A stretch of DNA of 64,000 nucleotides. Origin: Antiquaquibacter metalliresistens. Its GTDB lineage: Bacteria; Actinomycetota; Actinomycetes; Actinomycetales; Microbacteriaceae. Made by a program: the position numbers and the translations under genes. The DNA lies in assembly GCF_029211225.1 (NCBI RefSeq), contig NZ_JARGEM010000001.1, forward strand, positions 434,001 through 498,000. Reading direction: 5' to 3'. A model generated the notes under the pieces. The model had not been told where the DNA came from, did not search any database, and saw only the letters and a list, made by a program, of their open reading frames with translations. Position 1 is the first letter of the stretch. Every line of letters begins with the position of its first letter. This document shows, piece by piece, positions 35,849-38,197 of the stretch.

Positions 35849-36541
35849 TTAGAAGAAGTCGGGCGAGGGCGTCGAGGCCTGGCGGATCGAGACATCCGCG
35901 TGACGGTCGAAGCGGTAGCCGACCCCGCGCACGGTGCGCACGATGTCCTCGAAGTCGCCGAGCTTGGATCGCAGGCGGCGCACGTGCACGTCGATCGTGC
36001 GCTCGTTCGGCACTTCGTCATCGCCGACCGACCACAGTGCTGCGATGATCTCCGACCGATCGACAGTGCGGCCCTCGCGCAGCACGAGGTACTGCAGCAA
36101 CTCGAACTCCTTGTAGGTCAGGGATGCCGTCTCCCCGTCGAGCAGCACACGCTTGCGCGAGATGTCGATCACGACCCCACCGCGAGGCTTGGGCTCGGCC
36201 GGCGCTTCCTCTTGGCGGTGCTTGGCGAGGGCGGCGGGATCCTGCAGGGCGAGGCGCACGACATCGACGTCCCGACCGCCGGCGCCGACCGGCGCCAGAG
36301 CGACGGCGGCGTAGGTCTCGGCGCTGGGGACGAGCTCGGCCACGAGCTTCTTGATCTCGGCGACGACATGCGCGAGGTCGGTGCCCGCTTCGACGGCCTT
36401 GAACTCGTCGAGACCGACGTAGAGGGCGAAGCCTCGGGCCTCGGTGCCCTGCGGCACGGCCTGCAGGCGGCGGCTCGGGGCGGCGGTGGGAACGGGCGCG
36501 GCGGGGGCGATGGGTGCGCGCTCAACGGTGGCAATGGACAT
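35849..36541 (-). CDS. Winged-helix (OmpR/PhoB-type) DNA-binding protein
   Basis: 230 aa from ATG 36541. Ala/Pro-rich N-terminus, then an unrecognised ~90-residue domain (LYVGLDEFKAVEAGTDLAH...), then a C-terminal OmpR-type wHTH: YKEFELLQYLVLREGRTVDR, TIDVHVRRLRSKLGD and VRTVRGVGYRF. No phospho-acceptor receiver domain is evident, so it is not a normal response regulator. A 26-codon Cys-rich leader ORF lies 156 bp upstream on the same strand, suggesting regulation by attenuation. An earlier ATG at 36628 exists. Confidence 0.85.
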   Translation of the reverse strand: MSIATVERAPIAPAAPVPTAAPSRRLQAVPQGTEARGFALYVGLDEFKAVEAGTDLAHVVAEIKKLVAELVPSAETYAAVALAPVGAGGRDVDVVRLALQDPAALAKHRQEEAPAEPKPRGGVVIDISRKRVLLDGETASLTYKEFELLQYLVLREGRTVDRSEIIAALWSVGDDEVPNERTIDVHVRRLRSKLGDFEDIVRTVRGVGYRFDRHADVSIRQASTPSPDFF

Positions 36542-36697
36542 GGTTGTTGAATCCTCGGTGGGGGTGAAGGGCCCCTGATGATGGGGTTGTGATCCTTCGG
36601 GGTACTGCGGTCGTGCAAGCGGAGTCACGCCGTGATGAGGACGATATCCGCGGAGTTCGTATTCAGGGTCGAACGGAACTCGGCGAGGAGGGGCCGA

Positions 36698-36778
36698 TTA
36701 GGCACACATTCGACAACACATGACCGCGCGAGAACCCATCACCTCAAGGGTGGTCAGGGGGCGCACGGAAACGGTCAT
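36698..36778 (-). CDS. Cys-rich leader peptide uORF (26 aa) upstream of the winged-helix gene
   Basis: Starts MTVSVRPLTTLEV and ends VMCCRMCA before TAA, giving three Cys codons in the last six. A minus-strand promoter is well placed: TCGACA, 16 bp, TACACT (36790-36785), then 6 nt to the ATG, so the peptide would be the first thing translated on a leaderless transcript. Short C-terminally Cys-rich uORFs act as cysteine-sensing attenuators in mycobacteria; by analogy this may couple winged-helix expression to cysteine supply. The rest of 36542-36871 holds only leader sequence and the start of the MFS gene. Confidence 0.65.
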   Translation of the reverse strand: MTVSVRPLTTLEVMGSRAVMCCRMCA

Positions 36779-36871
36779 GCCGCGAGTGTACACACCGGGG
36801 CGCGAGCTTGTCGAGATCGACGGGGCTTGCACCAGTCAGGAGTCGGATTTCCGGGCTGGCAGAATCGTGAG

Positions 36872-38197
36872 GTGGGGGGAACACGTCTGGCCTTGCTGGG
36901 TCGTCTTGTCGTCGTGAATGTCGCGCTGTTCGCGGCCTATGCCGGGGTGCTCTCGGTGCTGCTGCCTCAGCAGATCGCGCGAATCGATCCCGAGGGCAAG
37001 GTCGGTGCGCTCGCGCTCGTGACCTCGGTATCGTTCGGCGTCACCGCTCTCGCGCAGCCCCTCGTCGGAGCCCTGAGCGACCGCACGCGGAGCCGGTGGG
37101 GGCGCCGCGTGCCGTGGATGCTCGGGGGTGCCGTGGTCGGCGGCGTTGCACTCGGTGCGATGGGTGGCGCGTCGTCGGTCGCCATGCTCGTGGTGCTGTG
37201 GGCGATCGCGCAGTTCTGCCTCAACGGCACCGACATCGCTTCGAGCGTCTATCTCGTCGACGGCTTTCCGGTGCAGCAGCGCGGGCTGGCCGCTGGAGTG
37301 CTCGGGGCGGCGGCGGTCGCTGGTGGTGTCGTGGGCACGATGCTCGCGGGCTCCGGCGCGCTCACGTCGAGTGTCGGATACTGGGTGCTCGCAGCGGTGG
37401 TGCTGGTCGCCGTGCTCGTCTTCGCTCTCACCTCGCGGGATCGCGTCGTACCGCAGGCGCAGGCGCAGCCGTTCCGGGTGGGGGTCTTCCTGCGCGGGTT
37501 CGTCGTGAACCCGCGGCGGCATCCCGACTTCGTCATCGTGCTCTTCTGGCGCATCTGCTTCACCGTCGCCTACGGCAGTGTCCACGGGTATCTGCTCTAC
37601 ATCCTCAGCGACTTCGTCGGCGTCGGTGAGGAGGAGGCGGCGGTGCTCGTCGGGGTCGCGGCCGTGATCGGTGGGGCCGGACTGCTCGTCGCCGTGCTCC
37701 TCGGCGGATGGCTCAGCGATCGCCTGGGACGCCGCCGCCCGTTCCTCGTCGCCGCGGGGTTGGCGGTCGTGGCGGCGCTCGCGGTTCCCCTGCTCTCTCC
37801 GACGGTACCGGGCATTCTGGCGCTGGCCGGAGTGCTCGGTGCGAGCCTCGGACTGTCGATCGCGTGCGGGACCGCGCTCGCCAGTCAAGTGATGCCCGAC
37901 CCAGACCGCGAGGCGGCGCGTGGCCTCGGGGTCTTCAACGTCGCCACGAACCTCGGCCAGGCTGCCGCACCTCTCGTCGCGGCGGTCGTGATCGCGTCGA
38001 CCGGCGGATACGCGGCGCTCTTCGTCGTCAGCGCGGTGATCATGCTCATCGGCACGGGACTCATCGCGTTCGTGCGCGAAGGCGGTGCGAGCGCGCCCAT
38101 CGCTCGCGATTCGGCGCATTCGCGCCCGCGGGTGACGCGCGGCTACACCAGCCCGTACAGGCGGTCCCCGGCATCCCCGAGGCCCGGGACGATGTAG
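36872..38197 (+). CDS. MFS transporter
   Basis: 441 aa, about 12 membrane segments. The loop 2-3 motif is present as [18 protein letters not shown], and again as [14 protein letters not shown] in the second half. GTG 36872 is supported by CAGAAT 6 nt upstream; a frame open back to 36632 carries no membrane or RBS evidence. Substrate unknown. The last ~18 codons overlap the convergent upp gene by 55 bp and are probably a read-through tail after a lost stop. Confidence 0.85.

Follow-up and report, generated by a model that had tools for sequence, protein, structure and literature searches.

A conserved cysteine-codon uORF in front of an orphan winged-helix regulator gene in three actinobacterial families

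On the minus strand of the 64,000-nt stretch of Antiquaquibacter metalliresistens DNA analysed here (the window; all coordinates refer to it), a very short open reading frame with cysteine codons at its end lies in front of a gene for a winged-helix (wHTH) regulator. Is this upstream open reading frame (uORF) a leader peptide gene that sets the level of the regulator, and is cysteine its signal? The preliminary description had claimed an ORF of 26 codons with the end MCCRMCA, a −10 element TACACT exactly 6 nt upstream of its ATG, a −35 element TCGACA at a spacing of 16 bp and a downstream winged-helix gene devoid of a receiver domain. The ORF is indeed found on the minus strand at 36698-36778, 156 nt (uORF stop to regulator ATG) before the winged-helix gene, and inspection of the sequence confirmed the distance of TACACT to the ATG. 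The −35 hexamer is present as well, but its spacing had to be corrected to 18 nt.

The uORF, its promoter and the downstream regulator

From promoter to regulator, the locus has the following elements:

36809-36814 (−): −35-like TCGACA, 18 nt from the −10; from sequence and recurrence in relatives
36785-36790 (−): −10-like TACACT, 6 nt before the uORF ATG; from sequence and recurrence in relatives
36776-36778 (−): start ATG of the uORF
36698-36778 (−): predicted-leaderless uORF, 26 codons plus stop, MTVSVRPLTTLEVMGSRAVMCCRMCA and stop; from sequence and tail conservation
36698-36721 (−): uORF tail ATG TGT TGT CGA ATG TGT GCC TAA (M C C R M C A stop), proposed sensor codons; CGA fixed, TGT preferred, low pN at M C C
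36698-36700 (−): stop TAA of the uORF
36653-36681 (−): hairpin P2, GAGUUC...GAACUC, 16 nt after the uORF stop; covarying stem in relatives
36566-36599 (−): leader block CGAAGGATCACAACCCCATCATCAGGGGCCCTTC, possible hairpin; by eye, conserved in part of the family
36552-36556 (−): Shine-Dalgarno-like GAGGA of the wHTH gene; AAGGA-like in relatives by eye
35849-36541 (−): orphan winged-helix regulator, 230 aa, Trans_reg_C at residues 136-211 (Pfam)

Between 36500 and 36900, TCGACA/TACACT is the sole promoter-like site (shuffles: mean 0.0), and its arrangement recurs in relatives. A total of 116 uORFs was collected with the pattern CGA-ATG-YGY imposed, as it is in all sets derived from them; three were dropped (L124, on a contig without the wHTH gene; L128, start not found; L129, wrong start picked), and the other 113 were dereplicated by shared 8-mers to 93 leaders. 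Of the 93, 62 carry a −35/−10 pair whose −10 ends 5-9 nt ahead of the uORF ATG, compared to 33 of 2790 shuffles; such a promoter would place the transcription start at the ATG. These 62 pairs all have a spacer of 17 or 18 nt and a −10 at 6 or 7 nt from the ATG. Taken singly, a −35 with five of six matches to TTGACA was found in 75/93 relatives (89/2790 shuffles) and a −10 with four of six matches at 6-8 nt in 71/93 (137/2790 shuffles). Where several in-frame ATGs were available the start with the best −10 score was taken, which favours the promoter count somewhat. A stricter test for the −10 (TAnnnT, 4-9 nt before the ATG) was passed by just 13 of the 116 uORFs, because many relatives carry GATAGT or TTTACT.

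Several repeats were seen by eye around this promoter. An inverted repeat, TGCAAGATAGTTGCA, covers the −10 of the uORF in part of the family (L003, L011, L013 and others) and is a possible operator. In L119-L127 (f1, g80), GTCA-type repeats with a spacing of about 10-11 bp occupy a region some 30-70 nt ahead of the uORF ATG, and loci of family f6 (L171 and L176, for example) have GTTAC repeats at intervals of about 20-22 bp just upstream of the uORF promoter. OmpR-type regulators often bind such spaced repeats. The repeats upstream of the promoter suggest autoregulation. On the plus strand of the window, an ORF for an MFS transporter (36632-38197) lies between the uORF promoter and upp, unlike in many relatives, in which by eye the uORF comes straight after the end of upp. 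The C-terminal end of a uracil phosphoribosyltransferase was inside the fetched locus in 74/80 of the best relatives, 6/23 loci of f6 and 21/21 of f7.

The downstream gene encodes a protein of 230 residues, of which Pfam assigns 136-211 to Trans_reg_C (PF00486, E 3e-22). A receiver domain was not found by Pfam, in agreement with the preliminary description, and this places the protein outside the definition of OmpR/PhoB two-component response regulators. Its start at 36539-36541 is supported as the true one by the start MS[IL]A in most relatives. For the N-terminal domain there was no sequence match in the PDB up to E 1, and its fold was not predicted confidently from 57 sequences (pTM 0.46). 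A conserved operon partner was not found: within 2.2 kb downstream of the regulator, no ORF family is common to more than 28 of 88 loci.

Conservation of the tail and choice of codons

Is the uORF conserved? The best 80 loci encoding the regulator, mostly from genera of the Microbacteriaceae, were inspected within 700 nt upstream for an in-frame tail in which Cys precedes Arg-Met and a stop follows after two more codons, with Arg free among CGN. A tail of the form (C)CRM[CH]x-stop was found upstream of the orthologous regulator in 78 of these 80 loci, which are related to one another, so that the counts are not independent events. The commonest tail is MCCRMCA-stop (45 of the 78), adjacent Cys residues are present in 68 of the 78, and the frame and the stop of the uORF are kept in 78 loci. 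One of the two misses (L111) is on a contig with only 144 nt upstream; in the other (L099), the uORF is kept (MTVHALPPTSFEAPGNAGMM...) and every Cys codon is replaced. Cys is retained in 78 of the 79 loci that have enough upstream sequence; loss of the C-terminal Cys in relatives, named beforehand as the finding that would refute the proposal, was looked for in the 80 loci and did not refute it. The uORF of L160 ends MRRMCA-stop. Within the genus of the window, CCRMCA-stop is the ending in 27 of 27 genomes.

In the family, a degenerate tail pattern with the third base of Arg left free matched 213 of 398 genomes, mostly at one site each, whereas the reversed pattern matched a single genome; among the matches listed for the tail pattern, all but two have CGA. 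A class-wide search with the tail pattern matched 31 of 394 genomes. What it matched beyond families f1 and f6 resembles noise and was discarded; several of these matches end in TGG, because TRR in the pattern admits TGG. Additional matches elsewhere in the genome (G023; G616 C1:1238-1258; G657 C3:2107823-2107843) may be due to chance or mark a second target.

Among 297 genomes sampled from the order, 72 have a match to the regulator's N-terminal domain, and a Cys-containing uORF upstream of the regulator orthologue was found in three actinobacterial families. In f6, a Cys-containing ...RMxx-stop tail is present in 15 of 23 loci, mostly as CCRM[HQ]A-stop and often preceded by a leaderless-looking GTG start; in f7, of which 21 loci were fetched from 23 genomes matched by the N-terminal domain, 19 have an MxCVR..-stop tail, and the uORFs inspected have a leaderless-looking ATG start. 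In both families promoters were assigned from scores and by eye, with no control set. Such a tail is absent in 8/23 loci of f6 and 2/21 of f7. One locus (L172) has the tail and no in-frame start codon besides an internal ATG, another (L173) has the nucleotide motif without a near stop and was scored as a miss, and the uORF of L198 ends CGCRMQA. Three weak matches to the N-terminal domain were fetched from f9, and no domain could be located in them. The final Cys of the window peptide is replaced in f6, mostly by His or Gln, and is therefore not universal. What is common across the families is a Cys followed by an Arg within a few residues (CCR, CVR, CRR).

Selection acts on the end of the frame. 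Among 49 dereplicated uORFs of 33 aa, pN/pS (raw proportions, saturation uncorrected) is 1.22 for codons 2-9, 0.75 for codons 10-16, 0.42 for codons 17-22 and 0.84 for codons 23-26. The value of 0.33 for codons 26-32 is partly built in, because CGA-ATG-YGY was imposed in the search; codons 27-29 (M C C), which lie outside the imposed pattern, still have a pN of 0.106 versus a pS of 0.543. Early codons that are free and a tail that is held fit a leader peptide and not a working small protein. A functional metal- or redox-active small protein, for which the conserved CCxxC tail speaks, is very unlikely in view of the relaxed codons 2-9, of a length that ranges from 22 to 53 codons across relatives, and of the position of the uORF, which precedes the same regulator gene wherever that gene was readable. 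The longest uORF (L074, 53 codons) has an in-frame expansion of an MMPVL repeat beside the hairpin loop. That the uORF is a fortuitous ORF in a plain 5′ UTR, for which its small size alone speaks, is hardly credible: as judged from the sequence comparisons, such an origin is refuted by the conservation of the tail, of the M C C codons with their low pN, and of the promoter pair.

Not only the residues but also the codons are conserved. The Arg of the tail is as fixed as the Cys, and its codon is CGA in 78 of 78 tails, although it was free among CGN in this search. The share of UGU among Cys codons at the three tail positions is 102/106, 98/116 and 89/116. In contrast, eight ORFs of the window (69% G+C) use UGC for all of their ten Cys and CGA for only 14 of 164 Arg. 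In the leu leader, the sensor codons are rare and slow. Slow codons at the sensor could account for the fixed CGA and the preference for UGU, as one explanation.

Since Arg is as fixed as Cys, the main alternative to a cysteine sensor is an arrest peptide, in which the nascent tail (C-x-R, CCRM) would itself halt translation on some other cue, for example a drug that targets the ribosome or a general shortage of amino acids, as in whiB7/wblC leaders; Cys would then be structural and not sensed. The element shared across families, Cys and then Arg, would also agree with this. However, a pure peptide effect leaves the invariant CGA and the preference for UGU unexplained, and Cys, a rare residue, is kept in all of the best 80 loci that have enough upstream sequence, with the single exception of L099, and recurs in the tails of f6 and f7. 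An arrest peptide is rather doubtful.

The leader RNA and a possible switch

What does the leader between uORF and regulator contribute? In many leaders the hairpin P2 (GRG...CYC) starts some 16 nt downstream of the uORF stop. A stem of at least 6 bp whose 5′ arm lies between +12 and +20 was found in 45 of 93 leaders versus 174 of 1860 controls made by shuffling everything except the 5′ arm; with a looser definition the numbers are 70/93 and 312/930. The inner pairs of P2 vary among UA, CG, UG and GC, with compensatory changes. Leaders as a whole fold better than their shuffles (mean z −2.0, 74% below −1, n=93). Other stems did not stand out. A stem P1 directly after the stop (mean 7.96, control 8.07) is within chance, and the best unconstrained stem of the leader (9.02 versus 9.01 in shuffles) is as well, which leaves P2 as the only one beyond chance. 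Most uORFs of 33 aa contain a further hairpin, P0, around CATGATG, which is present in 62 of the 63 uORFs that have this loop; the loop is missing in 30 uORFs, including that of the window. The leader block at 36566-36599, CGAAGGATCACA-CCTCATCATTAGAGG-CCCTTCAC, is strongly conserved in leaders such as L003, L047 and L072 and presumably resembles in part the 3′ end of 16S rRNA. An Rfam scan of 36400-37000 gave no match in the leader; its one match, far below the gathering score, is on the opposite strand and outside the leader. A terminator-like site was not found in 36500-36900.

The region of the ribosome-binding site (RBS) of the regulator is not structured beyond shuffles (mean z −0.27, 93 leaders), and pairing of the uORF with this RBS was discarded as a general rule (mean z −0.01, n=93). 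The usual route of sequestration of the Shine-Dalgarno sequence is therefore unsupported. Pairs of a uORF with its own RBS are on average 0.7 kcal/mol better than pairs with a foreign one, but they are better in just 46% of the loci. Complementarity to the start region of the wHTH gene exists in a subset, with 14 nt in L064, L065 and L077 and 8 nt in several others. This subset, together with a nucleotide sequence, TGTTGTCGAATG or a near copy, that is conserved in f1 and a large part of f6, would fit a tail that is mainly an RNA or DNA element, a binding site or pairing partner, with an incidental peptide. Complementarity to the RBS is not general, however, the frame and stop of the uORF are preserved in 78 loci, and the tail of f7 has another nucleotide sequence yet retains Cys codons near the stop. 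We regard such an element as unlikely.

Altogether, we consider it rather probable that a cis-acting attenuator, with the cysteine codons of a leader peptide as sensor, sets the level of the orphan OmpR-type regulator. The conserved tail, the recurring promoter arrangement, the conservation of codons, P2 and the same orthologous target are the demonstrated anatomy on which the following model is built. Transcription would begin at or next to the uORF ATG, and the ribosome would initiate without a leader. With plenty of charged Cys-tRNA, the ribosome would pass UGU UGU CGA AUG UGU and terminate, and the downstream leader (P2 and beyond) would adopt a form that keeps the output of the regulator low. 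When Cys-tRNA is short, the ribosome would come to a halt on the UGU/CGA block, which lies some 25-37 nt ahead of P2; the leader would be folded or read otherwise, and more wHTH regulator would be made. The preliminary description had proposed the architecture of a leaderless Cys uORF, a leader and a wHTH gene, with cysteine as the signal; conservation supports the architecture, whereas we infer the signal, the direction of the switch and the step that is controlled (translation or premature termination) from the analogy to M. smegmatis uORFs, as far as the available parts of PMC9031893 and PMC13236596 describe them. Some observations argue against the sensing of cysteine alone: the uORF of L099 has no Cys, that of L160 has the end MRRMCA-stop, the last Cys is replaced in f6, and the synonymous codon CGA is invariant, which a sensor of Cys only would not need.

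What would the attenuator be good for? PF01507 (PAPS/APS reductase) has no match in the genome of the window and none in 26 of the 27 genomes of the genus; the same search was positive in 14 of 14 control genomes. Since sulfate reduction seems to be absent from these genomes although they keep the uORF, it is unlikely that the uORF serves there to control this pathway. Sulfur in the genus probably comes from other sources. A wider proposal, which we put forward only tentatively, is that the uORF is a family-spanning cysteine gauge over a master regulator of cysteine or sulfur supply, in which UGU UGU CGA AUG would be a codon-specific stall site rather than the count of Cys alone being read, and which would be kept in lineages that have apparently lost sulfate reduction and have to scavenge sulfur. 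If true, a local amino-acid signal would be turned into a genome-wide response by a conserved uORF that controls how much of a transcription factor is made. Such a uORF would also open a way to study an orphan regulator with an N-terminal domain that recurs in 72 of the 297 genomes sampled from the order, and the fixed rare codon would allow a direct test of the tuning of leader peptides by slow decoding.

Relation to known leader peptides

Attenuators of the trp/leu/ilvB1 type share with the uORF the sensor codons and a hairpin after the stop, and the leu leader shares the rare sensor codons. They differ in their targets, which are biosynthetic enzymes and not a regulator. Of the mutually exclusive hairpins and the terminator of the trp type, P2 is supported, P1 is at the level of chance, and the leader of the window (36500-36900) has no terminator-like site. 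The window uORF peptide had no match in Pfam up to E 1, and six uORF peptides had none in NCBIfam up to E 10, a search in which the filters of HMMER drop most weak matches. A published description of this uORF was not found in the literature searched, which covers few subscription papers.

A precedent for the control of a regulator by a uORF in actinobacteria is WblC, according to the available parts of PMC12421871. The whiB7/wblC attenuator (PMC12421871 and PMC13236596, in the parts available) is also a leader ORF that governs a DNA-binding regulator; the regulator is another one, and the leaders were set side by side by description, not by sequence.

Closest are the mycobacterial leaderless short ORFs that encode polycysteine (Canestrari et al. 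2020, as cited in the accessible parts of PMC9031893, PMC9094748 and PMC13236596), of which the leaderless Cys-codon uORFs of M. smegmatis attenuate downstream translation (PMC9031893, same limitation). In both, a short ORF with Cys codons lies in the leader of the regulated gene, leaderless in mycobacteria and predicted to be so here, and attenuation by the speed of the ribosome over these codons is what we propose here. Their target, however, is a cysteine biosynthetic gene and here it is an orphan wHTH regulator; moreover, the tail here is a fixed CCRM with CGA and occurs in other families, the peptides being compared by description only. Cysteine-responsive attenuators have clustered Cys codons near the end of the uORF, and so does the uORF described here (78/80 loci, 68 with CC, CCRMCA in 27/27 genomes of the genus). 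They also have a gene of cysteine or sulfur metabolism downstream, in place of which a gene for a Trans_reg_C regulator is found here. Since the downstream gene is a regulator, the uORF is not classed as a member of the cysteine-responsive attenuators; since its target differs from those of the known Cys-codon uORFs, as far as these are described in the sources available, it is counted as a variant that works like them. The Cys-codon uORFs found in print, in the same sources, concern mycobacteria, and the version described here, which targets a regulator, appears to be new.
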